From NCBI RefSeq assembly GCF_009931115.1, contig NZ_CP047491.1:3175501-3239500 (forward strand): DNA of 64,000 nucleotides, read 5' to 3'. Below the pieces are notes generated by a model. It saw only the letters and a list, made by a program, of their open reading frames with translations. It was not told the DNA's origin and searched no databases. The stretch is from Microbulbifer hydrolyticus. GTDB taxonomy: Bacteria; Pseudomonadota; Gammaproteobacteria; Pseudomonadales; Cellvibrionaceae. Within the stretch, counting starts at the first letter, position 1; each line of letters opens with the position of its first letter. Positions 40,394 to 57,963 of this stretch are shown here, in pieces. A program made the position numbers and the translations under genes.

Positions 40394-41953
40394 TCATTCG
40401 ACATCAAACTCCAGCAACTCCGGCTTGAAGTGCGCGATAGCACTCTTGAATGCCTTGCGCTGCAGCCGCTCTGCAATCGGCAAGCCCAGGAATGCATTGT
40501 ACAGCCGGCGAGAGTTGTAGCCGGCAAAGGTGCGCGCGGTGAGATCGGTCTCGGCAATTGCCAACGCACCCCAGCCACTCATGCGGTGCTCCCAATAGAA
40601 CACATCGTTGACATCCACTCCGTGGAGATTGGAGAAGTCGGAGCTGTCGATAAAGTGCTGGAAGCTGGCACGAACAAACGACGAACCCTGCATAACATCG
40701 TAGGCACGGGAAAAGGCATCCGCCGTAGGGGATTGAATCTCATGCGAGCGCCCCTGATAGAAGCCACGCAGGATTTCGCCACCAAAACCGCGGGAATAAC
40801 TCAGGGACTCCCCGGGGAACCGCCCCCGGAAATGTGACATAAGCTGCGCGTTGGAAAACGCACTGTTCAGCCGCGCAAACCCGGTATTCTGGCGGATTAT
40901 CTGGATCGGTGCGGTAAAGTACTCGGGGTTCAAGCGGGTGAAATCAACCTTGAGCGTTTCGTGCTCCAGCCCCAATGACGAAGCAAGGTCCCGCGCCAGA
41001 GCGATATCGGTTGCACTGCCACCGTTCTGGTCCCCCCGATACAGGGTAAATGTATGCATCGGCATCTTTTTGGCCGCCAGAGCAGCCAGCAGCGTGCGGC
41101 TATCCAGCCCACCGGTAAGGCCGAACAATTCGCGGTCGTACCGGCTGCGAATATAGTCACCGTAACCATCCAGATATTGGATCAGCTCGCCATCAGGTGT
41201 ATTGGAGCCCACGCAGCCCTCGCGCGGCCAGTAGCGCTGGGCGCGGTTGCGGAAAATGTTCAGCCGATGGTTGGCCGGGCAATAAAAAATATTCTCGTAA
41301 ACCGTTCGGCAGCCCGGGAGGTACTTTACATCGCGTTTGCGGTAGGCCTCGCTGATGGTGAAGGACATCACATTGAAGTCCACAGGCTCAGCCGTCACTT
41401 CGGCCATCAATCCCGCATGGGAAGCAATTACGCCGGGGAGCTGCGCGTTGTAGTACACCGAACGGGATGAGAAGGCATCGTGATATACAAACCATTCCCG
41501 GCCGTGCCGGGCAAGGACAACAAACCGTCCGGAGAGCGCATCCAGCCGATCAAGAAACAAAGGCTCATTGGCTGAGAGTTCACACAGGGAATCGGCAATT
41601 GCCTGCGCATCAAACTCTTTGGAAAAAGGATCGAACACCTCACCAATGATCGCCAGCTGGCAGCCAGAGGACTCTGCACACACCAGCGAGGTATCCGGAT
41701 GGTGCGCCACCACCCAGTCGGACCAGGCGCGTGCCGGCCAGCCATTGATGGTCTTGAGCCGCCCGAGATTGGGCTCCGCGGTGCCATTGATACAAGCAAC
41801 GAACCCGTATTTGTAGAGATCCGATGACACATCCGCGCCGCTAAAAAAAGCCTCATTATCATCGGGTGAATACAGGGGCACCGGATCCACTTCAAAGCGC
41901 GTGTCTACGGGCGAAACCGGCTTGCGCACCCGCCCCTGCATCCAATCAAACAT
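40394..41953 (-). CDS. Asparagine synthase-like amidotransferase of capsule locus
   Basis: A 519-residue AsnB-type protein. The ATP-pyrophosphatase motif is FGLTGGLDSRTLLAAL (T280-GGLDS), in a domain with TLYRGDQNGG and SRGFGGEILRG. The N-terminal half resembles an asparagine-synthetase glutaminase fold, but the catalytic Cys at position 2 is missing (MFDWM...), so glutamine hydrolysis is not expected. The start overlaps the upstream GT2 stop (TAATG). In polysaccharide loci such proteins may form amides, for example on uronic acids; that is inference here. Confidence 0.8.
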   Translation of the reverse strand: MFDWMQGRVRKPVSPVDTRFEVDPVPLYSPDDNEAFFSGADVSSDLYKYGFVACINGTAEPNLGRLKTINGWPARAWSDWVVAHHPDTSLVCAESSGCQLAIIGEVFDPFSKEFDAQAIADSLCELSANEPLFLDRLDALSGRFVVLARHGREWFVYHDAFSSRSVYYNAQLPGVIASHAGLMAEVTAEPVDFNVMSFTISEAYRKRDVKYLPGCRTVYENIFYCPANHRLNIFRNRAQRYWPREGCVGSNTPDGELIQYLDGYGDYIRSRYDRELFGLTGGLDSRTLLAALAAKKMPMHTFTLYRGDQNGGSATDIALARDLASSLGLEHETLKVDFTRLNPEYFTAPIQIIRQNTGFARLNSAFSNAQLMSHFRGRFPGESLSYSRGFGGEILRGFYQGRSHEIQSPTADAFSRAYDVMQGSSFVRASFQHFIDSSDFSNLHGVDVNDVFYWEHRMSGWGALAIAETDLTARTFAGYNSRRLYNAFLGLPIAERLQRKAFKSAIAHFKPELLEFDVE

Positions 41954-44109
41954 TAAACCACCTGATCAAAAGCGGGGACATCGTCCCCACCATTACTGAA
42001 ATACACTTTCAGCGCTCCCTGCTGCTCGAAAGTTGATCCATCGCGATTATGTACTTGCTCGAGGCCATCCACCTGCACCACCTGGCTGGGGGGATGCGCC
42101 CACAACGCCTCGTCCAGCATCACGACCAGTGGCGCCGTAATCGCAAGGCCAACATGGGCGAACCCGATGCCATGCTGCTGACAAAGCGCGAAAACCTCGT
42201 CGGCAATAGTGGCGCCATGCCAGCCGTTATAGTCCGGCCAGTGGAACAGGCAAATCCGCTGCCCACCTGTGACGCGGGACGCAATCGCGCTGAGAGTGTA
42301 ATCAAGCTTTTCGCCACTTACTGCGAAGTCTGCCACTAAAACGCAATCAAATTCCCGGGGTGTACCGCGGCAAATGCCCAGGGGAATCGGGAATGGACGC
42401 GCATCATCCTCCGGCATTACCGGCTTGTTGTCGTTCTGGCGGTGCCACCAGCGCGCGGCCTCACGATAAATTCGGCGCAGACCATAATGGATGGTTTTGA
42501 CGTGAGTGGCCTTGGTACGGGTAAGCGTTGTATCGTCCGACAGTGCAAAAGACAGCGGCGTACCCGGTAACACATGCACGATGGCCTGGTGGCCGTAGTG
42601 GTGCTCCAGCCGCCACAGGAATTCAGTATCCGCGGCAACATTCACACTGTCCCACAGGCCGATAACGTCCAGCGCAGAGCGGCGCACGAGGGCGGAGGAA
42701 TGGTTCTTTTCTATAAAGGTTTCATTCAACAGCCAGGGCCCCACAAACGTGAGGTCATCCAGCACTCGCACCCAGCTGCTGAACGAAGCGACTTTGCTCT
42801 CATCCTTCAGCAGCGGCTGCAACTGGCGCTCAAGCTTCTGCGGGTGAGACCAGTCATCACTATCGTGAACCGTGACAAATCTACCGCGGGCCGCCTTCAT
42901 ACCGTTGTTGCGCGTAGGGTAAGCCCCCATATTGACGTCATTCAGCATGTAGCGGACGCGGGGATCCCGCTCCGCGTAGTCACGCGCCACATCCGCCGTA
43001 TTGTCGGTACTGCCATCGTCCACAACGATGACCTCCAGAGACCGAAGAGACTGCTCCAGCAAACCGTCCAGAGCAATCTGCAACGTCTCGCCAGCGTTGA
43101 ATACGGGAATGACCACGCTGACCAGCGGATGCTCCGCCAGCGCCGCCCGGCCTTCAGCAGTGTACTGCTCACCGGAACTCAGGTTATCCAGAGCCAGAGG
43201 TGTCGAATCGCACTTGCGCACAACATCCGCGAGCCCAGCGCGGTAGAAAATTTCATTGATAGATGCGAGCCGCTTGGCGTCGTCACCGCGCCAGGCGTTC
43301 GCTTGCAGGTAAGGCAGAGTCGCGCCGAGGCGCTGGGCATTTTGCGGATCAGAGAGTAGAGAGTGGAGCGCCCCGTACTCACCGAGCACTGAATAGCACT
43401 TACCAAGTCCAACCAGGGCCCTGCGCGAAGCGCCATCGGGAGAATGCGCAATGGACTGGCTCACACGCCCTTGCGCGGCCTCCACGTCGCCGTGCGCAAA
43501 AAGCCAGGCTGCAAGGTTCCAGGAAGCGCGACCGTCAAACAGTTGATCGGCCCGTCGCTCAAGTGCAGCCCAGGCAACGTGCATAAAGCCATTCCAGAGC
43601 CTGCTGTTGTAACCAGCTGTGGTCTGGGGAGTATGACGCTCCTCGACAGCTTGCGCCCCATGCTTTGGAAGCCGCCCCTCATCCTTACCGTGGCGAATAT
43701 AGTGCAGAAGCGGGTTAACACCACTAGCTCTTACATCGGGATTAGTATCCAGATACCAGTCAGAATCGAAGCTTGCGCTCGGATCCAGCCCAACTCGTCC
43801 CCCTATCCTTAGATAATGCCCTATTGGATCCGTCTCCAAATCCATTCCTTGGTCACTGATAGAGCATTTTTGACTTGAATAAAACTTATAATCGAATAAA
43901 CCGCTGTCAACAATCTCCTGAACTTCCGCCCGCCCCTCGCAAGAAGCTTTAGCGCGACCCAAAACGCCAAATAAATTACGCCAGGATAATCGACGACGAT
44001 GACTACTCAACAGCTTTAGCTGCTGGGCTTGCTGGGTGAGCTTCAAATTTTGCGCTTCGATGATCTCCAACGCTTCATCGAGAGAGCCCGGACTGCCGAT
44101 TCTTGTCAT
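41953..44109 (-). CDS. Family 2 glycosyltransferase with N-terminal coiled coil and repeat modules
   Basis: A 718-residue protein: a short coiled coil (about 10-40), two WYL-PDV modules (71-110 and 114-148), a helical region, a GT2 catalytic domain from about 330 (PLVSVVIPVFNAGETLQIALDGLL, VVDDGSTDNTADVA, HDSDDWSHPQKLE), then about 200 residues of unassigned C-terminal domain. DDGS and DSDD give the nucleotide- and metal-binding residues. It is translationally coupled to the asparagine-synthase-like gene. The sugar it transfers is unknown. Confidence 0.85.
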   Translation of the reverse strand: MTRIGSPGSLDEALEIIEAQNLKLTQQAQQLKLLSSHRRRLSWRNLFGVLGRAKASCEGRAEVQEIVDSGLFDYKFYSSQKCSISDQGMDLETDPIGHYLRIGGRVGLDPSASFDSDWYLDTNPDVRASGVNPLLHYIRHGKDEGRLPKHGAQAVEERHTPQTTAGYNSRLWNGFMHVAWAALERRADQLFDGRASWNLAAWLFAHGDVEAAQGRVSQSIAHSPDGASRRALVGLGKCYSVLGEYGALHSLLSDPQNAQRLGATLPYLQANAWRGDDAKRLASINEIFYRAGLADVVRKCDSTPLALDNLSSGEQYTAEGRAALAEHPLVSVVIPVFNAGETLQIALDGLLEQSLRSLEVIVVDDGSTDNTADVARDYAERDPRVRYMLNDVNMGAYPTRNNGMKAARGRFVTVHDSDDWSHPQKLERQLQPLLKDESKVASFSSWVRVLDDLTFVGPWLLNETFIEKNHSSALVRRSALDVIGLWDSVNVAADTEFLWRLEHHYGHQAIVHVLPGTPLSFALSDDTTLTRTKATHVKTIHYGLRRIYREAARWWHRQNDNKPVMPEDDARPFPIPLGICRGTPREFDCVLVADFAVSGEKLDYTLSAIASRVTGGQRICLFHWPDYNGWHGATIADEVFALCQQHGIGFAHVGLAITAPLVVMLDEALWAHPPSQVVQVDGLEQVHNRDGSTFEQQGALKVYFSNGGDDVPAFDQVV

Positions 44110-44121
44110 GTCTCAGTAAAC

Positions 44122-44850
44122 TCAAGATTCGATAAAATCGTAATATTCCTGAGGAACACCACAAAAAATAACACTCTCGGAGGGTACGACACTGTACTTA
44201 ACACACCGGCCCTGAGAAATTGCCAAATTATACATTGGCGCAATATAAAGCTCTTGCAACTGCGCATCGGAACCAAAGCCTTCTTGAAACAGTTCAAAGT
44301 AGCGCATGTAGGATGCTATAGAGCGCCAATAATACAACCCTGTACAGCAAAACTCAGAAAGCTCTTGCTTTTCACCAGTGAGGGCGACTGTTTGGCTATC
44401 CTTATTTTCCGGGACAACATTACTCCAATTTTTTCCGGATCCAACAAACGTTTCTAAATATCCTTCCACACCATCATCTAAAAAATCAGGGAATCGAAAC
44501 CCCGGACGAAAAGTATCTATATTAAAAATCGTCAGGGACTCATCACTATTAAAAGAGCTCGCCTTAAGCCCCTGATACACAGTATCAGCCTGACCTTTTG
44601 TAGGTGAATCCAATATCACAACCTCAAAATTATCGAGCCCCAGCTTTTGGCATTTCTCGGCAACGAAATCCTTGATACCTGGCTGATCCAACGTAACAAA
44701 GAGAAACGCCTGAGAGTTGAAATAGTATGAAAACCCCTTGACGCTATGCTCAAACAACGTCTCGCCTTTTGCTTCCAGCATATATTTCGGTTTATCGAAC
44801 CCAGCCTTGGCGAAACGACTGGAAAGGCCAGCCATAGGAAAAACAATCAT
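44122..44850 (-). CDS. Nucleotidyltransferase of capsule modification cassette
   Basis: A 242-residue sugar-nucleotidyltransferase-like protein. The N-terminus FPMAGLSSRFAKAGFDKPKYML is the LxGxG..R..KP signature of the family in a variant form, and FNIDTF is the metal-binding Asp region. It probably couples CTP or another NTP to a phosphorylated sugar, polyol or small alcohol. It begins 1 base after the stop of the kinase-fusion gene, which suggests that the two products act in the same route. Codon use is AT-rich compared with the kps genes. Confidence 0.78.
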   Translation of the reverse strand: MIVFPMAGLSSRFAKAGFDKPKYMLEAKGETLFEHSVKGFSYYFNSQAFLFVTLDQPGIKDFVAEKCQKLGLDNFEVVILDSPTKGQADTVYQGLKASSFNSDESLTIFNIDTFRPGFRFPDFLDDGVEGYLETFVGSGKNWSNVVPENKDSQTVALTGEKQELSEFCCTGLYYWRSIASYMRYFELFQEGFGSDAQLQELYIAPMYNLAISQGRCVKYSVVPSESVIFCGVPQEYYDFIES

Positions 44851-44851
44851 G

Positions 44852-46459
44852 TTAACTAACCCGATTACGTATCTGAATTTCTAGCTTCCGGTACAAACGA
44901 AGCGCATTCGCCAGCATCGCTTTCTGACGATCAGGTCTGTCATAATGCAGAGGCAACATTGAGAGGAATAGATGCACGTTAATCGCAAGGATCTCAACCT
45001 CATCAAATCGTCCAGAAGAAAAAAATTCATTTCTAAAGTATTTTTCTATATCAATCAATTCACACTGTGTGGAAAAATCTATCTTCCAAACACCGAGATC
45101 CCGATCGACATTGAGCGAGTATCTTCCGGCGACAATAAAGTCGTAAAGGCCGACGACAGAATGATAGAATTTTGAAACATCGTACCTGGAGTCTCCAAAA
45201 ATGGAAAAATTCCCATCGTAATCGATCCCTCGTGGATCAATAACCTTAATCGCTTGGGTGCGGCTATCGAACAAAAGGTTGCTAAAGCAAAAATCCCCAT
45301 GAGATATGACCACATGTGAATCATTCGCCTCTGATATAAGTTCAGCAGATCGCTCAGCCATTTGCCTAAGGGAAACACCAGACTCGCCCACCTCTGCGCG
45401 GAACTCCTGATCTATCGAAATATTGGATGAATCGCAAAACTGCCTCAATCGCTCAAGGGTCTTTGTCAGATATAGCTTATTAAGGGATTCAAGATTAGGG
45501 GCATCGGGACGGTAGTTTGAAAAATCGTCTAGTATCGTTCTTGCCGCCCTGAAAATAGATATCCACGACCGGCCACCCAGGGCGCCAAATACAAACAGAT
45601 CATTCAGCGGCATCCAGTATTGATACTCAAGACTGTAGCCGTCATCATCAGAAACTCCATGCGATGGGCTAAGCAAATTGGGACAATGAATACGCAAACG
45701 TGAAGGCAGGTACTCAAACCAATTCTTCTCTGCAAGGATTTTTTTATTATTACTACTCTTCTTTACTACCGATCTCGAGCAAATACTAAGCTCATTAAAT
45801 GCACGCTCCGTAGTTAACTTACTTCTTGCTCTAAAGTAGCTGTTAATGTGTCCAAAATCCAACCACTCACCTTCGCAAGATATAGTCATTTCGCAATTCG
45901 ATGAGTAATATTTCAGAGCCTCTGTAAAATTTCCGGAGTTCTCGATAATACCTTTCATTAAGACATGGGGGGAAGAAAAGGAGAAATACCCGGAAAGTAC
46001 ATCTTCTGATTCACCTGCCCAGACATCACTGAGAATAGGAACACCTTCAACGTAACTAAAAGTCGCGCGCTGGTAGAAACCCGAATTTTTATGCACAGAA
46101 AGGGCGTCACCTGTAGGGTAGGCCAAATCACGAAACAAAGTATCCCCATGAAGAACAGCAAGAGACTTGTATTGCTTCCCAGTCAGATTCCAACAGTACA
46201 GTATCGATTCACCGAGTGAAATACCTTCTGGTACGCGAAGAATAGAGATGCCCGCGCTTTCCAGCCAAGCCTCATCCACAGGATCGATCTTGAAAGAGCT
46301 TGGCAACGACAGGTATTTATCACCCTCCAAGCTGGAAATAGATTCAATCTGGTACGAATATAGTCGGCGATTACCAACGGGGAGAAAAGCTGGAGGCAAC
46401 CGACCAACCTCTGATGCGAAGTCCTGATCAATATAGGAACCTGAAGTGATCAGTATCAT
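44852..46459 (-). CDS. Nucleotidyltransferase-kinase (APH/choline-kinase-like) fusion
   Basis: A 535-residue two-domain protein. The N-terminal 230 residues resemble an NTP transferase (LPVGNRRLYSYQ at about 26-37, LHGDTLF at 104-110, EWLDFGHINSYFRARS near 200), although the glycine-rich signature is altered. The C-terminal part resembles aminoglycoside phosphotransferase or choline kinase (ISHGDFCFSNLLF at about 387-399, and VIDPRG at 407-412 for the metal Asp). The ATG at 46459 overlaps the HAD stop (TGATG). It may phosphorylate and activate a small alcohol for transfer to the capsule; the substrate is unknown. Confidence 0.75.
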   Translation of the reverse strand: MILITSGSYIDQDFASEVGRLPPAFLPVGNRRLYSYQIESISSLEGDKYLSLPSSFKIDPVDEAWLESAGISILRVPEGISLGESILYCWNLTGKQYKSLAVLHGDTLFRDLAYPTGDALSVHKNSGFYQRATFSYVEGVPILSDVWAGESEDVLSGYFSFSSPHVLMKGIIENSGNFTEALKYYSSNCEMTISCEGEWLDFGHINSYFRARSKLTTERAFNELSICSRSVVKKSSNNKKILAEKNWFEYLPSRLRIHCPNLLSPSHGVSDDDGYSLEYQYWMPLNDLFVFGALGGRSWISIFRAARTILDDFSNYRPDAPNLESLNKLYLTKTLERLRQFCDSSNISIDQEFRAEVGESGVSLRQMAERSAELISEANDSHVVISHGDFCFSNLLFDSRTQAIKVIDPRGIDYDGNFSIFGDSRYDVSKFYHSVVGLYDFIVAGRYSLNVDRDLGVWKIDFSTQCELIDIEKYFRNEFFSSGRFDEVEILAINVHLFLSMLPLHYDRPDRQKAMLANALRLYRKLEIQIRNRVS

Positions 46460-46848
46460 CACACTAACTCCACGGCATCTTTCTCTTTGGCCAGGAGCTC
46501 TGAAACCTCTTCTCTCGACATATTGAAAAACTCTGATGGTCGAATCGCCCGATCATCCACATAAAAACCCTCATGCCCGCACCAAGGTTTTCCCACATAG
46601 ATTTCATCAAAGGGGATATCGTGCTCCTTGAGCCAATCGACAATTATGGGAAGAGTGTTAGCCGCTATCTTCCCCACGTTACCCTGATATGTCCGTACGT
46701 TTCGACTTGTATTAATGACGATATCGAACCCAAGCGCCTTGTACTCTTTAATTCGACTAACCACACCCTCTACCGGTCTAGCGTTCCGATAGTCCCCGTC
46801 AGTGGTTACTGAAATCGTATGGTCCAAATCGATAATCAATCTTTTCAC
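46459..46848 (-). CDS. Small HAD-superfamily phosphatase of capsule locus
   Basis: A 129-residue HAD hydrolase with motif I IIDLDHTIS (D7 and D9), motif II NTSRN and motif IV VDDRAIRP; it has no large cap domain. Similar small phosphatases occur in capsule loci beside nucleotidyltransferases. Start is GTG 46848 after GGTAGGTTTTT. It overlaps the next gene by one base. It may remove phosphate from an intermediate made by the neighbouring kinase fusion or from its precursor. Confidence 0.8.
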   Translation of the reverse strand: MKRLIIDLDHTISVTTDGDYRNARPVEGVVSRIKEYKALGFDIVINTSRNVRTYQGNVGKIAANTLPIIVDWLKEHDIPFDEIYVGKPWCGHEGFYVDDRAIRPSEFFNMSREEVSELLAKEKDAVELV

Positions 46849-46860
46849 AAAAACCTACCT

Positions 46861-47727
46861 TCAATCGAAACGCGAACATGGAAGCCTATAACCAAATTTA
46901 TTGGCTATATAAGATCGAGCACTCTCTGAGAATTCCCTGGGAATCCGCTTGATTGCATATTTATCTTTTCCCACACTACAATCATCTATAAAAACATCAA
47001 TCTCTGAACGATCCCACTCCAACGATCTATCCCAAGGTAAATAAGTCACTGTATTACCCAGAACGAACCCTGGAGCATTCCTAGAGACTATTTTAATAGC
47101 CAATTGGTACCAAACCTCCTCGGTCGGGTATAAGGGGGGATCGGAACTTAAGCTACAGTATTCGTCCAATTCACCAACAGCATGAAACACGTCATCGACA
47201 AATTTTTCGCTAAAAAATGCGCCTTCATGACACCCTTTCATTACACCATCTGTGCGGATATCAAACTCCTCTCCCAAAGCTAAAGCCCCAAAGGACTCCA
47301 GCGACCTATGCCGTAAAATTGATTCCCGCCAAAAACCAGCTACCTTCCCTTTTCCTATCCCGGCATCAAATCGCTTGATATAGTCTTCCACACCATACCG
47401 AACAAACAGAGAGTTACTTGCCTCAAGCATAAAGTAATCAAATCCTACTCCACTATCTCTAAGCGCCCTTAAATTACTCCCATGAGCCTTATGCAAGCTA
47501 AAGGAATCCTTCCCCGTAGAAAATCTATCTGCGGTTATATGTATTCTCGATGCCACATCCGGTCGCAAATTCCCCACCCAAAAGATCAGCTCTTGATACA
47601 CTGATTCGCTATCTTTATTAACATGCATAACGATAAGAGGATCTGCCAAAAAATTTAAAATATTAAGGCATTGATCGATTATCACCGCAGGCTCTTCATG
47701 CGCTGTAATACTAACTGCAACTCTCAT
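46861..47727 (-). CDS. Free-standing homologue of the Pasteurella GAG synthase C-terminal domain
   Basis: A 288-residue protein directly downstream of the GAG synthase gene (132 bases apart). Several of its motifs appear, in the same order, in the C-terminal third of Pasteurella PmHAS/PmCS as I recall those sequences: MHVNKD (34-39), NSLFV (105-109), MKGCHEGAFF (163-172), TEEVWYQLA (202-210) and TYLPWDRSLEW (228-238). In Pasteurella this tail is fused to the polymerase and is linked to membrane or partner association; E. coli KfoC lacks it. A distant relation to branching glycosyltransferases is an alternative. The gene is AT-rich and has a weak ribosome site. Confidence 0.7.
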   Translation of the reverse strand: MRVAVSITAHEEPAVIIDQCLNILNFLADPLIVMHVNKDSESVYQELIFWVGNLRPDVASRIHITADRFSTGKDSFSLHKAHGSNLRALRDSGVGFDYFMLEASNSLFVRYGVEDYIKRFDAGIGKGKVAGFWRESILRHRSLESFGALALGEEFDIRTDGVMKGCHEGAFFSEKFVDDVFHAVGELDEYCSLSSDPPLYPTEEVWYQLAIKIVSRNAPGFVLGNTVTYLPWDRSLEWDRSEIDVFIDDCSVGKDKYAIKRIPREFSESARSYIANKFGYRLPCSRFD

Positions 47728-47859
47728 AAAACCAACCTAAAAATGTCGGATACATCGCCAAAATGCAGCGACGGCACATCTTAAAATCTAAAAACGCTCT
47801 TTTTCAAAACGACCGAGTCTTTCATTTAAAAACCGACAACTCACTTCACTAAGACAATT

Positions 47860-49899
47860 CTAAAATTTGGAAACTTCGAATACATACTTTCTCGATGAAT
47901 CATCACCTAGATCTTTGGGGATATAACGAAAATCACGAACCCCTTGACGACTTAAATACTCATTCACCACGCGAAAATGGTTTTCCTTTTGCTCGCCAAG
48001 CTGTTTTATCGAAGTGTTATCTCCATGCAAAACGCGGTTGTAGCAAATCTTATTGACATGCTTAAACGGGCCAACCTCGGAGAGCTTGAGGTACATATCG
48101 TAGTCGACCGCATTTACGATTTTCTCATCAAAACCTTCCGTCAAATTCCAGGCTCTCGCGGTAAACATACGGAAATGATGGCAAATCATCGCCGTGGTCA
48201 ATTTTTCTCGGGAATATTGAGGCCAGTTATACCCATTGGAAATCAACTTGCCTTCGGCATCCACGTTCCTATTCGTGGTATACACACAAGCGAGCTTCTT
48301 GTCCGCAAAGAACTCACGCAAGCATACTTCAACCGCATCGGGCTCGAGATAATCATCGGAATCCAACTGTCCGATATAAAAACCACGGGTCAACTTAACC
48401 GCAGTATTCGACGCCGCGCCAATACCACCATTTTCTCTGGACACGAACCGTACACGCGGGTGACCGCTGTATAGAGATCGCAGCAACTCTCCAGTGCCGT
48501 CGGTCGAACCGTCATCACAGATGCACACTTCGAGATCTGATACGGTCTGATTCAACGCACTGTTGACACAGCGCTCAATTGTTTCCTTGCAGTTGTACGC
48601 TGGAATATAAATTGATACCAGAGGTACCTTTTTCATGACCGATTGCTTCAGGTCTTCTATCTTGCGATAGAAATAAGGCACCTTCTGCTGAACTATCTTA
48701 ATTGTGATCTGCTTACCTGCTGCACGATCGGTTTCGTTTTCTTTTCCAGGCGGCTCTTGGTGGTAAGCCATACCACCATCCACAGCGCGGAAGTAACAGC
48801 CAGCACGGTACAGGCGATAGCCGAACTCGTTGTCTTCTCCTCCCCAGTGGGTAAACTCCTCATCAAACCAGCCGGCTTTATCCAGCCATTTTCGTGCAAA
48901 CGCGACATTGCCACCGCTAAAATAGCGAAACGGGGAATCGCACAGGCGAAGATTGTCGGTCTTAGCGAAATGCTCCAGGCGCCAGTCCACTGAAACGGTA
49001 TCTTTGACCGTATTGCCGACGGTGCTATTGGTTCTCACCTCCGGCAGCGAGGCTAGTAAATCAGGATTTTTTTCGATGTCATCCGCAGTCAGCTCTTCGG
49101 TGTCGATATACTTCCTGGGGCCAATCAAAGCCACGTCGTCATTGGAGAGCAACAGCTCCATGTATGACTGGACCCAAATTCTGCCAGGCGCCATGTCGCA
49201 ATCAAGAATGGAAACATAGTCATATTTCGCAGTCCGAAGACCAAGATTTCGCACTGCACAGAGCTGATAGCCATAATCACGTTGGCGAACGAGCTTTATA
49301 TCCAGCCGGTCTTCGTATTTACGAACAACCTTGGCAAGATCCTCCTTGCTACCGTCATCGGCCACTATCACTTCGTATGGAAAATCTGTAATCTGGGCTG
49401 CCAGGCAAGACAACGTGATGTCAAGTATTCGGGACCGATTGAACGTCGGAACCACAATACTCAAGCCCACATTTTCTGCTCCTTTGGACTCCCGGACAGT
49501 TACTCTCTCGTCTGCCCAGGAAAAGTCATTTGTCCCCTCCGGCAGTGGGGCCAGCGTCAATCCCTTCGGCCAGTCTGAAGGGATCGGATTAACGGCTTTA
49601 TCCCCAAGGTCTTCGGATTTCCGCTTTTTCTGCTGCTCGCAAAACTTATGAATCGATGAAACTTCCGTTTCATCCAACACAATTTCACCGGCGTTATGCA
49701 GCATCAATTTCGTTACCGGATCCAATACTGCAGCAGCAACACCTTGGTCACTATTGGCCGCAATCGCTTTCTCACATAGCTCGATATTGAACTTTACAAC
49801 ACAGTCTCCATAGACCTTAGAAGCTTTTTTATACAACCCCAAGGCTTCTCCAAATTTTCCTTTGGAAAAAAGATCGTTTGCAGTTTTTATAAGTCTCAT
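47860..49899 (-). CDS. Dual-domain glycosaminoglycan synthase (KfoC/PmCS/PmHAS family)
   Basis: Predicted polymerase of the capsule backbone, alternating a hexosamine and glucuronate. It has 679 residues, close to E. coli K4 KfoC. It contains an N-terminal TPR-like region; an A1 domain with DDGS (181-184), DCD (233-235) and WGGED (352-356); and an A2 domain with DDGS (462-465) and DSD (513-515). Long stretches such as YHQEPPGKENETDR and SIYIPAYNC are hallmarks of this family. GYQLCAVRNLGLR and MICHHFRMFTARAWNLTEGF look more like chondroitin synthases than hyaluronan synthase, as far as I recall them. ugd in the same operon supplies UDP-GlcA. No UDP-GalNAc epimerase gene is in the window. Confidence 0.9.
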   Translation of the reverse strand: MRLIKTANDLFSKGKFGEALGLYKKASKVYGDCVVKFNIELCEKAIAANSDQGVAAAVLDPVTKLMLHNAGEIVLDETEVSSIHKFCEQQKKRKSEDLGDKAVNPIPSDWPKGLTLAPLPEGTNDFSWADERVTVRESKGAENVGLSIVVPTFNRSRILDITLSCLAAQITDFPYEVIVADDGSKEDLAKVVRKYEDRLDIKLVRQRDYGYQLCAVRNLGLRTAKYDYVSILDCDMAPGRIWVQSYMELLLSNDDVALIGPRKYIDTEELTADDIEKNPDLLASLPEVRTNSTVGNTVKDTVSVDWRLEHFAKTDNLRLCDSPFRYFSGGNVAFARKWLDKAGWFDEEFTHWGGEDNEFGYRLYRAGCYFRAVDGGMAYHQEPPGKENETDRAAGKQITIKIVQQKVPYFYRKIEDLKQSVMKKVPLVSIYIPAYNCKETIERCVNSALNQTVSDLEVCICDDGSTDGTGELLRSLYSGHPRVRFVSRENGGIGAASNTAVKLTRGFYIGQLDSDDYLEPDAVEVCLREFFADKKLACVYTTNRNVDAEGKLISNGYNWPQYSREKLTTAMICHHFRMFTARAWNLTEGFDEKIVNAVDYDMYLKLSEVGPFKHVNKICYNRVLHGDNTSIKQLGEQKENHFRVVNEYLSRQGVRDFRYIPKDLGDDSSRKYVFEVSKF

Positions 49900-49934: not shown

Positions 49935-50840
49935 TTAATTGATTTTTAGTAGGGCGGCGCCCTTCTCGAAGGGTAGGCGCTGGAATGAATATGGAATCTC
50001 GCGCTTATCCAGGAGCGCCTTCCACTTTTCAACAATCTCATGCTCTTCAGGACGATCATAGTCATCAAGGATCACGAATATTTCGTGTCCTGCCATATAA
50101 TCCAGCAACACAGGAAGCGCTGGATAACGCGCATTATCACAAGTTGCTCCTGGGGGACCGTCTATAAGCACCACCACCTTTTGCTTAATACCTTTATCAA
50201 GCGCTGCCATCTCGAAAAGCTTTTGAGAACAGTCGTAAAAGATATAGCTCTCCGAATCCACGGTCTGCTCAACCAATGGCGCGTGAACCAGATCCACAAA
50301 CGCTTGCACGCCATGACTTGCCAAAATATCAGCGGTCTTCTTCAAATAGTCGTCATGATGTTCAAAAGTTATTACTTTTGGGGAGCATTCTTTCTGATTT
50401 TCGCCTGCGCCACGATTCCGACTATCCGCTAGCGCCTTCATCGCCTTGGCAAATAGGACGGTGGAAGTTCCACTCCCGAACTCAAGCACCAAGTCGGGGC
50501 GTTCTGTACTTACCACTTCCACCAAGTACTGTGCAACGTCACTACTGATCGGCCAACCGTGGAAATTCAGCGCTGGCTCACCGGTCTGGAAGAAGTCCTG
50601 AATGCCGATAAAAGCTTCAATTTGCTTTACGCTATTCGCAACAGACCTCTGAATCGCACTCTCAATGGAATGCTTGAAAGCTTTAGCATCTTGCCTCTGC
50701 GCATCCAGGCTCTCACTAAACAATCTGGTTATTTTGCATTCCAAATCTTTACGCTCAGTTCTTTCCTGCTCGATTTGCGCTTTTAGCTGAATAATCAAAT
50801 TTTTCAGCTCTTCATTACCGTCTTTAACTTCCATTCTCAT
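49935..50840 (-). CDS. SAM-dependent methyltransferase-like protein with N-terminal coiled coil
   Basis: A 301-residue protein. Residues 8-75 are a charged coiled coil. From about 95 a class I methyltransferase-type Rossmann domain is suggested by LVLEFGSGTSTVLFAKA (SAM-binding glycine motif) and a later VVLIDGPPGATCDNARYPALP. It could methylate a capsule sugar or terminate chain growth, as methyltransferases do in some ABC-dependent O-antigens. The substrate is not deducible. It lies 35 bases upstream of the GAG synthase, in the same operon. Confidence 0.72.
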   Translation of the reverse strand: MRMEVKDGNEELKNLIIQLKAQIEQERTERKDLECKITRLFSESLDAQRQDAKAFKHSIESAIQRSVANSVKQIEAFIGIQDFFQTGEPALNFHGWPISSDVAQYLVEVVSTERPDLVLEFGSGTSTVLFAKAMKALADSRNRGAGENQKECSPKVITFEHHDDYLKKTADILASHGVQAFVDLVHAPLVEQTVDSESYIFYDCSQKLFEMAALDKGIKQKVVVLIDGPPGATCDNARYPALPVLLDYMAGHEIFVILDDYDRPEEHEIVEKWKALLDKREIPYSFQRLPFEKGAALLKIN

Positions 50841-51934: not shown

Positions 51935-53101
51935 CTAGTCGGTACCGAAAATATCTCGGGTATAGACTTTATCTTGCACATCATAAATTTCGGAGGTAAG
52001 TCGGTTTGCAAGGATCACATCACATTCTGTCTTGAACGCTCCAAGGTCTTTAATAACCCGTGAATGATAAAATTCATCTTCCTCCAGCACCGGCTCATAT
52101 ACGACAACTTCGATTCCTTTCGCCTTGATCCGCTTCATCACGCCCTGCATGGCGCTAGCGCGGAAGTTGTCCGAACCGGACTTCATGATCAGGCGGTAAA
52201 CACCCACCACTTTGGGGTTGCGTTTGATCACGCTTTCGGCAACAAAGTCCTTGCGAGTGGTATTCGCTTCCACAATGGCCTGAATCAGGTTATTGGGCAC
52301 ATCTTCATAGTTTGCCAGCAGCTGTTTTGTGTCCTTCGGCAGACAGTAGCCACCGTAACCGAAGGACGGGTTGTGGTAGTGCTGGCCAATGCGCGGATCC
52401 AGGCCTACGCCGTCAATGATCTGACGCGTGTTCAGGCCGTGGGTTTCCGCGTAGGTATCCAGCTCGTTGAAGTAGGCAACGCGCATGGCCAGATAGGTGT
52501 TGGAGAACAGCTTGATCGCCTCGGCTTCGGTGCTGTCGGTAAACAGCACTGGTACATCCTGCTCCATTGCGCCCTGCTTCAGCAGTTCAGCGAAGGTTTC
52601 TGCACGGGCGGACTGCTCTCCGACGACGATGCGGGACGGGTGCAGGTTGTCGTACAGTGCGCGCCCTTCGCGCAGGAACTCCGGTGAGAACAGGATGTTT
52701 TCTGTGCGGAACGCTTCGCGTACTTTCTTTGTGTAGCCCACCGGTACAGTGGACTTGATTACCATGACCGCACCCGGGTTTATCGCCATTACATCGTCGA
52801 TCACGGCTTCGACGCTGCTGGTATTGAAGTAGTTGCTATCCGGGTCGTAATCCGTCGGCGTTGCGATGATGACGAAGTCAGCACCCGCGTAGGCTATTTT
52901 CTTGTCTAGGGTCGCACGAAAATTGAGTGCGTCATTCTGCAGAAAGCACTCGATCTCGGTGTCTTCAATGGGGGACTGCTTCTGGTTAATCCGCTCGACT
53001 TTGGATTCGTCGATATCCAGTGCAACCACTTCATTGTGCTGCGCGAGAAGTAAAGCGTTTGACAGGCCTACATAGCCCGTTCCTGCAACTGCAATTTTCA
53101 T
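51935..53101 (-). CDS. ugd: UDP-glucose 6-dehydrogenase
   Basis: Oxidises UDP-glucose to UDP-glucuronate with two NAD+. It has 388 residues of the short form used in capsule loci (KfiD, KfoF, HasB). The N-terminal Rossmann motif is [18 protein letters not shown]; the middle has [13 protein letters not shown]; the catalytic Cys is in [17 protein letters not shown]; and the C-terminal UDP-binding part has [11 protein letters not shown]. It provides one of the two precursors of the GAG synthase two genes further down. The 214 bases between kpsD and ugd have no gene and may hold an internal promoter. Confidence 0.96.
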
Positions 53102-53315: not shown

Positions 53316-55019
53316 TTAGAATGACAGTACGGCCGCAGTCCCCACGGCTATACGGTAAAGAATCTCGGTGATGTCTTTGGTCACCTGCAGCTCTCCCGCC
53401 TGGATCTTGGGCATAATCATTATTTCATCACCCGCGCGCAGCGTGCCGCGTAAACGGTTGTTGAACTTTCGCTCTTTGATGCGGCTGATGGTGCCGTCCA
53501 GATGCAGGACGACCAGCTCTTCAGTGTCCGCGTTATTAGAGAAGCCACCGGCCATCTCTATGTAGTCTTCGAGGGTGTTCGCCTCGTCAAATACCAGTGA
53601 CGTCGGGAAGACCACTTCGCCTACCACGGAAACCGTCGACGCTCTCAGTGGCACCACCAGTTCATCGCCATCTTCGAGAAGCATTTCGCCAGCGCGATCA
53701 TTATTCGCGAGCACCACCTGACCGCGAGGCTGCGCCTTGCGGGCTTTACTGATGAACTTCTGAATCATGGCCGCACTGTCTTTCAGGGAAGACTTGTCGG
53801 ACGAGGTAACCGGTTGGCGGGTGAGCGCCTCCATTTCCAGCGCGTCAAGGGAACGGTTCAGGGCAACCTTCTGCTGCTCGGCCACACTCTTCCGGTACAG
53901 CTGGATCGCGAACGGGTCCGCATTGTCGCGGTAGCGGATGCGGTCGATCAGGTCGGCAAGCGTTGCGCCGTATGGCAGTACATAGGCTGCGGGGCCTTCC
54001 ACTTCGCCTTTTACCCGTACGGAGATGGAGCTGATGTCGCTGTCGCTGACCAGTTCAATATGTGCCCCCGGGTACAGGGTGGCCTGCACTGCCTGATCCA
54101 GTGGCAGGTAGCTGGCCTGCTGCTGATCATCAATAATCTGGGTAATGCGGGCGTAGTTGGCGCGCGGCTTGGGTTTTGCCACCATGAGCATTTCACTCAG
54201 GCTGGTGGACTGGCCAAGAAATTCTATTTGCGCACTCTGCTGCACATCACCCTCAATCGTGATGTGCCCCTGACGCGCGCCGACCACAATGGAATCGCCG
54301 TTGCGCAACTGCAATGCGGGCATCTTGCCCGTCACCAGGAACTGGTACAGATCGACGCGCTGCAGCATTTCTCCCTGGCGCAGAACCCGGATATCAATGT
54401 AGCTACCGCTTTCACGCTCGATACCGCCGGCGCTGTCCAGGTAGTACAGCACCGAGTCCGAGGAATAGCCGTTATAGAGTCCCGGGCGCACCACGTTGCC
54501 GGTAACAAACACCTTGACCGGCTGGCTGGCCTCCAGGTTGGCATAGGCACTGACGTTGCTCTTGAATACGCGCTTTACGTGGCGCAGTACAAATTCGTTG
54601 AGTGCGCCGTTCTCCACGCCCGCCACATGCACCGGCCCGACTTCGGGGATGAAGATATTCCCCTGTGGGTCCACCGGCAGGCTCGCACTGAAGCTGTAGG
54701 CACCCCAAAGCTGCAGGTTGATCTTGTCACCAATGGTGATGCGGTAGCTCGGATTGAAGCCGCTGAATGGTTGATCGCGGAAGGCACCCTGGAACAGGGA
54801 CTCACCAAATACCGGGATCCCACCGTCGCTGCGACGCTGCGGACCCGGTAAGGCCGGAGATGTTTCGCCGGCAATGCCCGCGGCGGCAAGCCGCTGTTCG
54901 GTGAGTTTATCGATCTGCTGTGTTTCCAGCGCCTGTACCTGCAACCCAAGGCACAGCATGCTCAAGGCGCTGACGCGATAAAGCCAGTTGATCATTTTTC
55001 TCGATGTTTTTCTGTTCAT
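53316..55019 (-). CDS. kpsD: Capsule export outer-membrane-associated protein KpsD
   Basis: Polysaccharide export protein of the Wza/KpsD (OPX) family that carries capsule through the periplasm and outer membrane. It has 567 residues from the ATG at 55019; ATG 54995 is also possible. A signal peptide (NWLYRVSALSMLCLGLQVQA) precedes the mature protein. The PES domain has YRITIGDKINLQLWG and PVDPQGNIFIPEVGPV, followed by several SLBB-type repeats (VFVTGNVVRPGLYNGYSSDS, then VSVVGEVVFPTSLVFDEANTLEDYI). It has no lipobox. It is flanked by kpsE and ugd in one operon. Confidence 0.93.
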   Translation of the reverse strand: MNRKTSRKMINWLYRVSALSMLCLGLQVQALETQQIDKLTEQRLAAAGIAGETSPALPGPQRRSDGGIPVFGESLFQGAFRDQPFSGFNPSYRITIGDKINLQLWGAYSFSASLPVDPQGNIFIPEVGPVHVAGVENGALNEFVLRHVKRVFKSNVSAYANLEASQPVKVFVTGNVVRPGLYNGYSSDSVLYYLDSAGGIERESGSYIDIRVLRQGEMLQRVDLYQFLVTGKMPALQLRNGDSIVVGARQGHITIEGDVQQSAQIEFLGQSTSLSEMLMVAKPKPRANYARITQIIDDQQQASYLPLDQAVQATLYPGAHIELVSDSDISSISVRVKGEVEGPAAYVLPYGATLADLIDRIRYRDNADPFAIQLYRKSVAEQQKVALNRSLDALEMEALTRQPVTSSDKSSLKDSAAMIQKFISKARKAQPRGQVVLANNDRAGEMLLEDGDELVVPLRASTVSVVGEVVFPTSLVFDEANTLEDYIEMAGGFSNNADTEELVVLHLDGTISRIKERKFNNRLRGTLRAGDEIMIMPKIQAGELQVTKDITEILYRIAVGTAAVLSF

Positions 55020-55070
55020 GCAAATACGGGAACTCAAAAGTGAACTGCAGGTTATCCGGTGGCTGCGGTA

Positions 55071-56291
55071 TCAGATCCGGTGATCTTTGATACTCGCGAT
55101 CATCATGCGAATAACGCCATAGATCAGTAGCAGCACGACTGCCAGGCTGATCAGGTTGTATATTTTCCTTGGGAACCTGGCTTCTTCCGCCATGGACGGG
55201 CGGGATACCACTATCAGGTGCTTTAATCGGCTGGATGCCTCCATACGCGCAGTTTCCAGTGCTTTCAGCGCTGCCTGATACGCGTCCATGGCAAACTGGA
55301 GGTCCAGCTGCAGGTTCTGGAAGTTGGCACTCAAACTGTTGAGACGCACCCCTGTGTGGTCACCGGAAACACCGACGATACGCGCTTTTTCCTGCTCGAT
55401 TTGATTTTCCAGGGCGGCAATTTCTGTCTCGATCGAGACGATTTGCGAAGAGCCCGCATTGAGGTAGGTTTTCGAGGCCGAGAGCTTGGCTTTCTGTTCA
55501 GACAGGCGGGCCTCCAGCCCCTGGATAATACTGCTGATACCGCGGGTCAATTCTTCCGGGCTGACCACCTCATTTTGATTCTGGAAGTCCAATATTTCCT
55601 GCTTGGCCGCGCGCAACTTTTCCTGTGCTCGATCCAGCTCGGTACGCACGAAGTTCACCTGCTTTTCGGCAAGCTCGTTGCTGACTGCATTGACAAAATC
55701 TTCGGATTTTCTGGTGATGGTCTGGATCAGTTTGCGGGCAAATTCCGGCTCGAAGGCCTGGACTTCTATACTGACAATGCCCGTGACCTCATCGAAGGAG
55801 ACTCCGATGTGTTCGCGGTAGTAATCCAGGTAGTCCTCACGGGAAGCGTCCGTCTCCAGGCGCGAGAAATAATCGTACCGATCGCTTTTATAGTAGGAGG
55901 CAAGCTCCAGCTCTTCATCCAGGTAAAGCGCCATATCCAGCGACTGGATATAGTTCACCACCAAGTGCGCGTCCTGACTACTTCCGGAAATGCCCGGCAT
56001 CAGCATGCCGAGGGTGCCATCAACGCTCTGTTCCGCGCCATTTTCCTTTACGATCAGTTGTGTGGTACTGACGTAACGCTCAGATACCCAAAACATGTAG
56101 TAGGCCGTCATCAGCAGGAGAGGCAATACCACCACCAGGCCGACGCCAGCCACTGTGCTCATGCGGCCAACTCTGTCCGCAAGCTGGTAGCTTCGGGTTT
56201 TCAAACGGACACCGACATTTTTTACGGCTTTCAACACTGGGGGGTTACCACTTTTTACCGGCAAGTTTGATGCTTTCTGTTCACTGTTCAT
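55071..56291 (-). CDS. kpsE: Capsule export inner-membrane protein KpsE
   Basis: Polysaccharide co-polymerase type 3 (PCP-3) that links the KpsMT transporter to KpsD across the periplasm. It has 406 residues with two membrane helices, at about 47-68 and 377-397, and a long periplasmic coiled coil between them (about 205-345, ELAEKQVNFVRTELDRAQEKL). The N-terminal membrane-proximal sequence FWVSERYVSTTQLIVKE is typical of KpsE/BexC/CtrB. It begins 5 bases after the kpsT stop. Confidence 0.94.
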   Translation of the reverse strand: MNSEQKASNLPVKSGNPPVLKAVKNVGVRLKTRSYQLADRVGRMSTVAGVGLVVVLPLLLMTAYYMFWVSERYVSTTQLIVKENGAEQSVDGTLGMLMPGISGSSQDAHLVVNYIQSLDMALYLDEELELASYYKSDRYDYFSRLETDASREDYLDYYREHIGVSFDEVTGIVSIEVQAFEPEFARKLIQTITRKSEDFVNAVSNELAEKQVNFVRTELDRAQEKLRAAKQEILDFQNQNEVVSPEELTRGISSIIQGLEARLSEQKAKLSASKTYLNAGSSQIVSIETEIAALENQIEQEKARIVGVSGDHTGVRLNSLSANFQNLQLDLQFAMDAYQAALKALETARMEASSRLKHLIVVSRPSMAEEARFPRKIYNLISLAVVLLLIYGVIRMMIASIKDHRI

Positions 56292-56296
56292 TAGGC

Positions 56297-56998
56297 TTAT
56301 TGAATCACTGCTTGTGCACGCGCACTGGCTTTTGGCGCGGGCACGTTGTTCTGGTAAATATCAATTGCTGCCTGGACGGTATCGTGCAGCTGCATTCCTT
56401 CCGGCCCCAGGTAGATACCCACATCGCAGTTTTCCCGCAGTGTGGACATACTGTGGGCAACGATGATGAAGTTTGCGGTTTTACGCTTCTCGGCAATCAC
56501 TTCCCGGCACTTGTGCTTGAAGTGGGCATCGCCTACGGACATCACTTCATCCACCAGATACCAGTCAAAATCGACAGCAATACTCAGGCCAAAGGCGAGG
56601 CGCGAACGCATACCAGAGGAGTAGGATTTGACCGGCGCATCGAAATAATTGCCGATCTCGGCAAACTCCTGAACCCGGTCCAGTACACGTCGACGTCCGC
56701 TGCCCCAGATACCGTGGAGGCCGCAAATAAACGCGGCGTTTTCACGGCCGGTCATGCTGCCCTGGAAGCCGCCCGACAAGCCCATCGGCCAGGAAATGCG
56801 CTGATCGGTAATGACGCGACCGTGGTCGGGATAATCGATCCCCCCCATAATCCGCAGCAAGGTGGACTTGCCGGCGCCATTGCGCCCGAGAATGCCGATA
56901 TTCTTGCCTTCGGGAAACACGGCATTGACACCCCGGAACAGCGTTTTTCGCCCATGCGGGGTGCGGTAGGATTTGGTGAGGTTGCGCAGCTCAATCAT
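56297..56998 (-). CDS. kpsT: Capsule ABC transporter ATP-binding protein KpsT
   Basis: ATPase of the group 2 capsule exporter. It has 233 residues. Walker A is GRNGAGKST, the signature region is SYSSGMRSRLAFGLSIA, and Walker B is FDWYLVDEVMSVGD. The N-terminus MIELRNLTKSYRTPHGRKTLF matches KpsT/BexA. The start codon overlaps the kpsM stop by 4 bases. Confidence 0.96.
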   Translation of the reverse strand: MIELRNLTKSYRTPHGRKTLFRGVNAVFPEGKNIGILGRNGAGKSTLLRIMGGIDYPDHGRVITDQRISWPMGLSGGFQGSMTGRENAAFICGLHGIWGSGRRRVLDRVQEFAEIGNYFDAPVKSYSSGMRSRLAFGLSIAVDFDWYLVDEVMSVGDAHFKHKCREVIAEKRKTANFIIVAHSMSTLRENCDVGIYLGPEGMQLHDTVQAAIDIYQNNVPAPKASARAQAVIQ

Positions 56999-57786
56999 CG
57001 GCTACGCACCAGGTCTCGCCACTGGCCACGGTACACCAGCAACCCAAAGGCCAGCGTTACCAGGGCGCTCATCGCCAGGTACTGCAAATCGGCGAACTTG
57101 CCGTGGTAGTCCGCATAGAGCCCGCTGCGCGTCAGCTCGATCATGTGCAGCACAGGGTTCCAGGACAGATAGGGGTGGAACTTCTCCGGCAGCTGCTCCA
57201 GAGAGAAGAAGACCCCCGAGAGGAAGTACATCGGGCGCTGGATGACAGGGGCAAACTTGGCCGCCTCTGGGTAGCGCTCGCCGACCACACACAGTGTCAG
57301 CGCCAGCCCCAGGCCAAAGCCAAGAATTGCCAGGTTCGCGACCACCAACAGGAGGAAGCTGTTAAAGGGCGCGGAAATACCAAACCAGCGGAAGCCAAAC
57401 CAGAATATGGCAAGGCTGCCGATATAGATGGTGAACTCGAGTAGCACTCGGGAAATGACCGCATCAAACGGGCGCAATTGCCGGTAATTGAACAACCCGC
57501 GGTTGGCCGAGACCGCCGCCAGACCTTTGGAAAAGCAGTGACTGAAAAACAGGAATGGGGCGATTCCGGCCAGCATGAACAGTGCTGTCGGGATACCCGG
57601 ATAGAATTCACGGCCGATAAGACTGAATATGGCCACCAGAACGAGCATGTGCATGGCTGCTTCGAGCAACACCCACGCATAACCGAGACGCCACTTGCCA
57701 AAGCGGGTCTTCATCTCGCGGATCAGGAGTGCGCGGATCACGTCACGCTGGATCTGCCAGGGGCTGCGGTGGATGTTTGGATGCAT
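56995..57786 (-). CDS. kpsM: Capsule ABC transporter permease KpsM
   Basis: Membrane subunit of the capsule exporter, with about six helices. It has 263 residues from the ATG at 57786 (MHPNIHRSPWQIQRDVIRALLIREMKTRFG), matching KpsM/BexB. The open frame extends upstream, but this start fits the family. RPMYFLSGVFFSLEQLP and WNPVLHMIELTRSGLY are typical ABC-2 exporter stretches. It is the first gene of the capsule operon; the promoter should lie in 57787-58069. Confidence 0.95.
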   Translation of the reverse strand: MHPNIHRSPWQIQRDVIRALLIREMKTRFGKWRLGYAWVLLEAAMHMLVLVAIFSLIGREFYPGIPTALFMLAGIAPFLFFSHCFSKGLAAVSANRGLFNYRQLRPFDAVISRVLLEFTIYIGSLAIFWFGFRWFGISAPFNSFLLLVVANLAILGFGLGLALTLCVVGERYPEAAKFAPVIQRPMYFLSGVFFSLEQLPEKFHPYLSWNPVLHMIELTRSGLYADYHGKFADLQYLAMSALVTLAFGLLVYRGQWRDLVRSR

Positions 57787-57963
57787 GTTGAGCGTTCGGA
57801 TTCTTATTACTACTGACGTGCCGCCGATATACCCCAAGGCAGCCCCCCTAATTGGGGAAAATTTCTGTCAAGAGATCCTTCTCGACCACCCATCCACCTA
57901 AAATGTGACAGGGTTCCGTGCAACAAGCGCGGAATTGTACAAGAACAGGCGTCTAAAAACACC

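Follow-up and report, generated by a model that had tools for sequence, protein, structure and literature searches.

A free homologue of the Pasteurella synthase tail, possibly an active glycosyltransferase, beside a KfoC-type polymerase of Microbulbifer hydrolyticus

The polymerase and the tail gene

The window (the whole stretch of DNA analysed here, 64,000 nucleotides of Microbulbifer hydrolyticus contig NZ_CP047491.1, positions 3,175,501 to 3,239,500) carries on its minus strand a gene for a 679-residue glycosaminoglycan (GAG) polymerase (47860..49899) and, 132 bp behind it on the same strand, a gene for a 288-residue protein (46861..47727). This second protein is, by sequence comparison, a free homologue of the C-terminal tail of the Pasteurella synthases, with a predicted GT-A glycosyltransferase (GT) fold and a resemblance to family GT14. 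Both open reading frames have the lengths given in an earlier note on this DNA, and all five tail motifs that it had listed are present in the 288-residue protein, namely MHVNKD (residues 34-39), NSLFV (105-109), KGCHEGAFF (164-172), TEEVWYQLA (202-210), and TYLPWDRSLEW (228-238).

The polymerase is a bifunctional GT2 enzyme of the KfoC type, chondroitin/hyaluronan type by sequence. Its residues 58-675 matched the K4 chondroitin synthase (PDB 2z86) at 972.8 bits (E 9.6e-292), Pfam PF00535 was found in two stretches, and the two GT2 domains possess DXD motifs (DCD at 233 and DSD at 513) as well as WGGED at 352. It shares 64-65% identity with two E. coli KfoC-type relatives, and the C-terminal ends lie within about 10 residues of one another in the alignment, in agreement with the earlier claim that the enzyme stops where KfoC stops. 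The catalytic part shares 59-70% identity with four fused Pasteurellaceae synthases, one of these relatives being partial. Polymerase frames are interrupted or shortened in two of the fetched records, L017 (about 9995-10160) and L020, which reflects either a change in the gene or an assembly error.

Homology to the fused tails

The 288-residue protein had been proposed to be an unfused version of the Pasteurella-type tail, and this proposal was borne out. When the protein was used in a tblastn search of the fetched KfoC-family loci, the region after both GT2 domains was matched in Actinobacillus ureae (117 bits) and Avibacterium paragallinarum (110 bits). Searches of single whole genomes gave E 2.0e-31 for A. 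ureae, E 6.9e-29 for A. paragallinarum, and E 4.8e-25 and 4.2e-23 for two further Pasteurellaceae genomes, G417 and G480, whose synthases are 958 and 964 residues long. These four are the fused tails compared throughout, none being PmHAS or PmCS from a named P. multocida genome, and their identity to the 288-residue protein is 23-28%. As far as gene sizes and visual inspection show, G417 and G480 follow the phy-hya-hex order of P. multocida given in the accessible part of PMC9045168, from which G417 differs by an extra gene for a 309-residue protein (DUF6492).

Profile comparison gave a similar picture. In hhalign, the four fused tails matched ten free members of the family at E 3.7e-14 (probability 98.2), and at E 4.4e-9 (probability 96.0) when the window protein was left out, while the lowest E in 50 column-shuffled controls was 0.063 and 0.023, respectively. 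Of the four fused tails, a plain hidden Markov model of the ten free members, window protein included, matched just L017 (3.7e-15), so that the link between the other free members and the fused tails depends on comparing profiles and on the window protein standing between them. Taken at the level of sequence, the 288-residue protein is homologous to the Pasteurellaceae synthase tail, far above chance, and no unrelated family matched it much better. Some motifs, such as TYLPWDR.L.W, are common to the window protein and the fused forms and are not found in the other free members. Among the fused proteins, the tail is far more diverged than the catalytic part, with 37-49% identity versus 65-75%. 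A model of the whole fused synthase of A. ureae reached a predicted template modelling score (pTM) of 0.34 and a mean predicted local distance difference test score (pLDDT) of 60.3, and its tail was viewed by eye for the succession of helices and strands.

In an unrooted tree of 14 sequences, the window protein and the four fused tails fall on one side of a branch with support 100/99, and the fused tails form a group within that side, also at 100/99. The stem of the fused tails is 1.88 long versus 0.65 for the end branch of the window protein.

Conserved residues lost from the fused tails

An alignment of 12 rows was made from eight free members, window protein included, and the four fused tails. 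Twenty-two columns are invariant in the eight free members, of which all four fused tails keep 5 and all lack 12, namely H10, E11, Q19, T71, S104, N105, E168, K260, R261, R264, R271, and I274. R271 and I274 are missing because the fused tails have already ended there. Since the window protein is one of the eight defining members, a fairer count leaves it out; the seven other free members have 31 invariant columns, of which 22 are kept in the window protein and 9-10 in the fused tails. The start of the window protein coincides with that of the other free members. The fused tails possess conserved residues of their own, D..D and T[YH][ML]PW[DE]RKL.W, and are therefore probably still constrained, but differently.

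Predicted fold and resemblance to GT14

The AlphaFold model of the 288-residue protein, built on three sequences, has pLDDT 68.3 and pTM 0.72, with a weak C-terminus. Among the best 50 Foldseek matches in PDB, the top ones were of the GT-A enzyme BoGT6a, a bacterial GT6 that is metal-independent according to its PDB entry, at E 1.2e-5 and probability 1.00; superposition gave TM-scores of 0.52-0.61 by target and 0.44-0.52 by query, with a root-mean-square deviation of 4.9-6.2. The model was also matched to 2z86 (E 1.5e-4). The protein is thus predicted to have a GT-A fold. Against predicted viral proteins, the best 50 matches were mostly uncharacterised proteins and glycosyltransferases (best E 3.9e-7), and nothing specific was found.

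Resemblance to GT14 came from profiles. The ten free members matched six bacterial GT14 proteins in hhalign at E 1.1e-6 (probability 91.0, 131 columns), and leaving out the window protein changed the E to 2.1e-6. Fifty column shuffles gave no E below 0.013, and six control families, comprising two KfoC GT2 domains and four neighbour families, yielded E 0.066-0.35 against the free-member profile. The Pfam family Branch (PF02485) was not among the families with E <=1 for any of 12 members. Pfam and NCBIfam matched no family on the 288-residue protein; by sequence, PDB gave one match for it at E 2 and none for the 12-row profile.

Other free members of the family

Free members of the tail family are present on plasmids of Pseudorhizobium, Caballeronia, and two Acetobacter, in three Pasteurellaceae genomes (L041-L043), where they adjoin ABC (ATP-binding cassette)-type export genes, and in two genomes (L075 and L076) that belong to a single genus from another part of the phylum. 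A draw across the phylum found the family in 2 of 354 genomes, the window's own and G792. A protein of about 626 residues adjoins the free tail homologue in L075 (6470-8350) and L076 (7044-8942) and possibly holds a related domain; the two matched the free-tail profile weakly, at E 1.3e-6 and 6e-7, and the L075 protein starts with an F5/8 type C domain.

The pairing with a KfoC-type polymerase is rare in the material covered. The tail gene was not found in the fetched stretches at 11 other KfoC-type loci (L005, L006, L011-L015, and L018-L021), among which L020 has a shortened frame and L013 little upstream sequence; nine of the 11 came from a scan of 84,980 species with two peptide patterns, and other cases may exist. 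Eight of the 11 were covered as whole genomes, and a seven-row tail profile at E <=0.01 matched none of them, an empty result that, lacking a positive control, proves nothing on its own. A 49-residue match in the L020 polymerase region (E 0.07) was taken as chance. Within the order to which the window belongs, the tail search matched 1 of 341 genomes, namely the window's own. Among 140 Pasteurellaceae genomes, five hold a KfoC-type polymerase at E <=1e-100; four of these are tailed, and the fifth, G466, encodes a tail-less KfoC-type protein of 645 residues. Two weak matches of the class search, G309 (E 0.0036) and G204 (E 0.0089), were rejected because they were absent from the list of the 12-row profile at E 10. 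The 288-residue protein had no match in phage records, and a scan of viral_contigs gave 25 pattern matches, none of which was confirmed.

The surrounding capsule cluster

The pair lies in a capsule cluster on the minus strand, which comprises KpsS- and KpsC-like Capsule_synth genes, several glycosyltransferases, a UDP (uridine diphosphate)-glucose dehydrogenase, and KpsD/E/T/M-like export genes. Upstream of the polymerase are a 301-residue methyltransferase-like protein (49935..50840), which has relatives directly upstream of the polymerase gene in L011, L013, L018, and L020, and a UDP-glucose 6-dehydrogenase (51935..53101) for the supply of UDP-glucuronic acid. The export genes encode a polysaccharide export protein in the KpsD position (53316..55037), a KpsE/BexC/CtrB family protein (55071..56291), an ABC transporter ATPase in the KpsT position (56297..56998), and a KpsM-like ABC transporter permease (56995..57837). 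At the other end are the putative makers of the Kdo (3-deoxy-D-manno-oct-2-ulosonic acid) linker, a Capsule_synth protein assigned to KpsC by size and repeats (31538..33607) and a KpsS-like one (28986..30236); a PhyH-type dioxygenase gene lies between them (30450-31481). A 718-residue GT2 protein (41953..44109) shares 37% identity over 244 residues with a GT2 gene of the E. coli KfoC-type locus L005, where the counterpart is positioned downstream of a nucleotide sugar dehydrogenase gene. A module FDxxWYLxxxPDV...P..H....G..EGR was seen by eye in three otherwise unlike cluster proteins (38458-40329, 41953-44109, and 50930-51844), two of which were recovered by a pattern search. A promoter scan found 8 sites versus 13.7 in shuffles.

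The tail gene is followed, at a distance of 12 bp, by a compact trio on the same strand. It consists of a HAD (haloacid dehalogenase) phosphatase of the EcbF/BcbF capsule family (46459..46848; NCBIfam TIGR01689, 201.8 bits, over the cut-off of 162), a 536-residue nucleotidyltransferase/kinase-like protein (44852..46462) with weak, below-cut-off similarity to APH/choline kinases and a nucleotidyltransferase profile, and a 242-residue MobA/IspD-like nucleotidyltransferase (44122..44850), below the Pfam cut-off. The G+C content at third codon positions (GC3) is 0.37 in the tail gene, 0.515 in the polymerase gene, and 0.42-0.49 in the trio, so the tail gene is nearer to the trio.

The trio behaves as a block, with all three genes in 26 of 26 loci, a set that leaves out A. 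ureae with its mere remnant and in which every locus but the window had been selected through a trio gene, the tail, or the polymerase. Of 10 free-tail loci, 7 have all three trio genes nearby (the window, L010, L041-L043, L075, and L076, the last two nearly identical), and the trio adjoins the tail gene in both tail-bearing genomes of the phylum draw. In Pasteurellaceae, the three genomes with a free tail are all among the 7 of 140 with the trio marker (hypergeometric 7.8e-5), although these three loci look related and are not independent cases, and the seven include A. ureae with its remnant and one match at a contig end. That remnant, a 140-residue piece of the kinase-like protein, lies directly behind the fused synthase of A. 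ureae (L016, 12922-13344), as if, judged from the sequence, a window-like arrangement had decayed there. In the phylum draw, the trio marker was found in 14 of 398 genomes versus 2 of 354 for the tail family, and the tail profile found 8 of 27 trio-survey loci and 2 of 13 loci of the phylum draw.

A kinase, a phosphatase, and a nucleotidyltransferase together suggest an activated-sugar pathway, and the trio would thus point to such a pathway in many polysaccharide loci. An NDP (nucleoside diphosphate)-fructose product was considered for the trio, but the literature examined, as far as its text was available, gives these genes no assignment. An E. coli plasmid carrying capsule genes (L086) contains the trio too. 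In the available part of PMC7901785, the capsule genes CJSA_1353-1355 of C. jejuni IA3902 are listed as 'Unknown', with 240, 507, and 132 residues; they match the trio by size and adjacency, a likeness drawn from sizes and order, not from sequence.

Proposed role of the tail protein and alternatives

The predicted GT-A-like fold, the resemblance to GT14, and the retention of family-conserved residues make an active glycosyltransferase the most likely identity of the 288-residue protein. It is on balance probable, as far as sequences and models can tell, that it is a free and active glycosyltransferase partner of the polymerase, whose counterpart in Pasteurella became part of the synthase, gave up conserved residues, and may today be no more than an anchor. 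From the computed homology, tree grouping, predicted fold class, neighbourhood, and residue loss, we infer catalysis, donor, site of action, and order of events as follows. The protein would work in trans beside the KfoC-type polymerase and would attach either a side residue or the residue that begins the chain (the transition residue), using an activated donor that the adjoining trio may make, and the Kps-type ABC exporter would release the finished chain. Among the ancestors of the Pasteurellaceae, the tail protein would have been fused to the polymerase and would have lost conserved residues and its C-terminal end; the fused tail is now probably only membrane-associating. The free form thus suggests, at the sequence level, that an enzyme was repurposed as the 'membrane tail' of Pasteurella.

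The earlier note had called the arrangement a split synthase. However, the other members found are free, the window protein groups with the fused tails in the unrooted tree, and the fused stem is long, which makes one fusion in the Pasteurellaceae lineage the simpler course, and the direction is probably the reverse of that wording. That the two genes arose by secondary splitting of a once fused gene is very improbable; the two frames do share a reading frame (a chance of 1/3), but the 132-bp gap has stops in all three coding-strand frames and no linker-like sequence by eye, and the window protein starts where the free members start, keeps their conserved residues, and belongs to a family whose other free members are unfused.

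Several observations weigh against an active transferase supplied by the trio. The model stems from three sequences and has low confidence at its C-terminus, GT14 structures were absent from the best 50 PDB matches, which were headed by a GT6, and the GT14 match is confined to the N-terminal half of the profile. The fused tails alone gave no match to the GT14 profile (E 0.19), and, because of this and of the missing structures, the protein is called GT14-like, not GT14. Pfam found nothing convincing on the 12 family members, three single matches at E 0.019-0.18 being taken as chance. The fused tails, with their own conserved residues, may have changed function instead of losing it. As for the trio, 3 of 10 free-tail loci lack the whole of it in the stretch read (L007 and L009 hold a nucleotidyltransferase homologue, L008 nothing), and it occurs without the tail family in 19 of 27 loci and in 11 of 13 of the phylum draw, so that its product need not be the donor of the tail protein. 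In Comamonas kerstersii (L013, 3020-3901), a gene for a 293-residue GT2 protein (PF00535, E 2.3e-14) lies between the KfoC-type polymerase and the trio, in the position of the tail.

Another explanation, implied by the earlier note, casts the 288-residue protein as an adaptor without catalysis, holding the polymerase in trans at the membrane or the export complex, as the fused tail would do in cis. The available passages of two reviews, PMC10939387 and PMC12346304, assign residues ~704-972 of PmHAS, about the last 269, only to peripheral membrane anchoring or association and describe them as unneeded for transferase activity; moreover, the tail gene adjoins the polymerase, and the motifs common to the window and fused forms (TYLPWDR.L.W) are kept. 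We nevertheless consider a pure adaptor rather unlikely, as the window protein keeps the residues of free members from loci without a KfoC-type polymerase, while the supposedly anchoring fused tails lost them, and other KfoC-type polymerases do without such a partner (the 11 fetched loci and the eight whole genomes above). The earlier suggestion that the tail bears on how these synthases dock to the export machinery finds no support as worded and is incomplete, since the family resembles GT-A glycosyltransferases and the residues conserved among free members persist in the window protein but have mostly gone from the fused tails. It is also improbable that the gene is simply a capsule glycosyltransferase brought beside the polymerase by cassette shuffling, which would not act on the polymerase product and would share only ancestry with the tail. 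Free relatives are indeed carried by polysaccharide loci without KfoC (L010 and L041-L043), and the GC3 of the tail gene is below that of the polymerase and nearer to the trio; its closest relatives, however, are fused to KfoC-type synthases, which places the family with the polymerase in two arrangements.

A narrower form of the partner reading would make the protein a GT14-like initiator, which attaches a first residue to the Kdo linker, ahead of the GAG chain, with a donor from the trio, the Pasteurella tail being its fused relic. This form is quite unlikely at present. Animal GAG chains are begun by a GT14 xylosyltransferase, and the start of a bacterial chain would parallel them if the initiator were real.

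Whichever role applies, the free form places the Pasteurella tail domain in a family, provides it with a predicted fold, and points to a likely origin from an enzyme, and the pair offers a natural case of two genes that allows the polymerase and the tail to be examined separately. Priming, decoration, or the holding of synthases at the exporter thereby become testable, which is relevant to capsule biology and enzymatic GAG production. Among the matches listed in a search of open-licence literature, the text available held no pointer to an unfused tail or to a relation between tail and glycosyltransferases, and an earlier description elsewhere is possible.

Comparison with known systems

The GT14 family (Core-2/I-branching enzymes and xylosyltransferase; Pfam Branch) is like the free-member profile over its N-terminal half, at the E of 1.1e-6 given above, but differs in that none of the 12 members matched Pfam Branch and in the absence of its structures from the best 50 Foldseek matches. 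The group 2 capsule transition transferases CpsA and CpsC of A. pleuropneumoniae (PMC11666461) would be functionally alike if the residue next to the Kdo linker is supplied by the tail protein; these enzymes build glycerol-phosphate linkers, according to the accessible part of PMC11924219.

The E. coli KfoC type resembles the window in polymerase length, in the 64-65% identity of the polymerase, and in having Kps-type exporter genes nearby, while its two loci, unlike the window, are without a tail homologue in the 25-kb stretches read. The class II GAG synthases of Pasteurellaceae (PmHAS, PmCS, and their allies) share with the window both the dual GT2 part and the homologous tail. The window differs from them in that the tail is encoded by a separate gene, keeps the family-conserved residues, and is followed by the trio.

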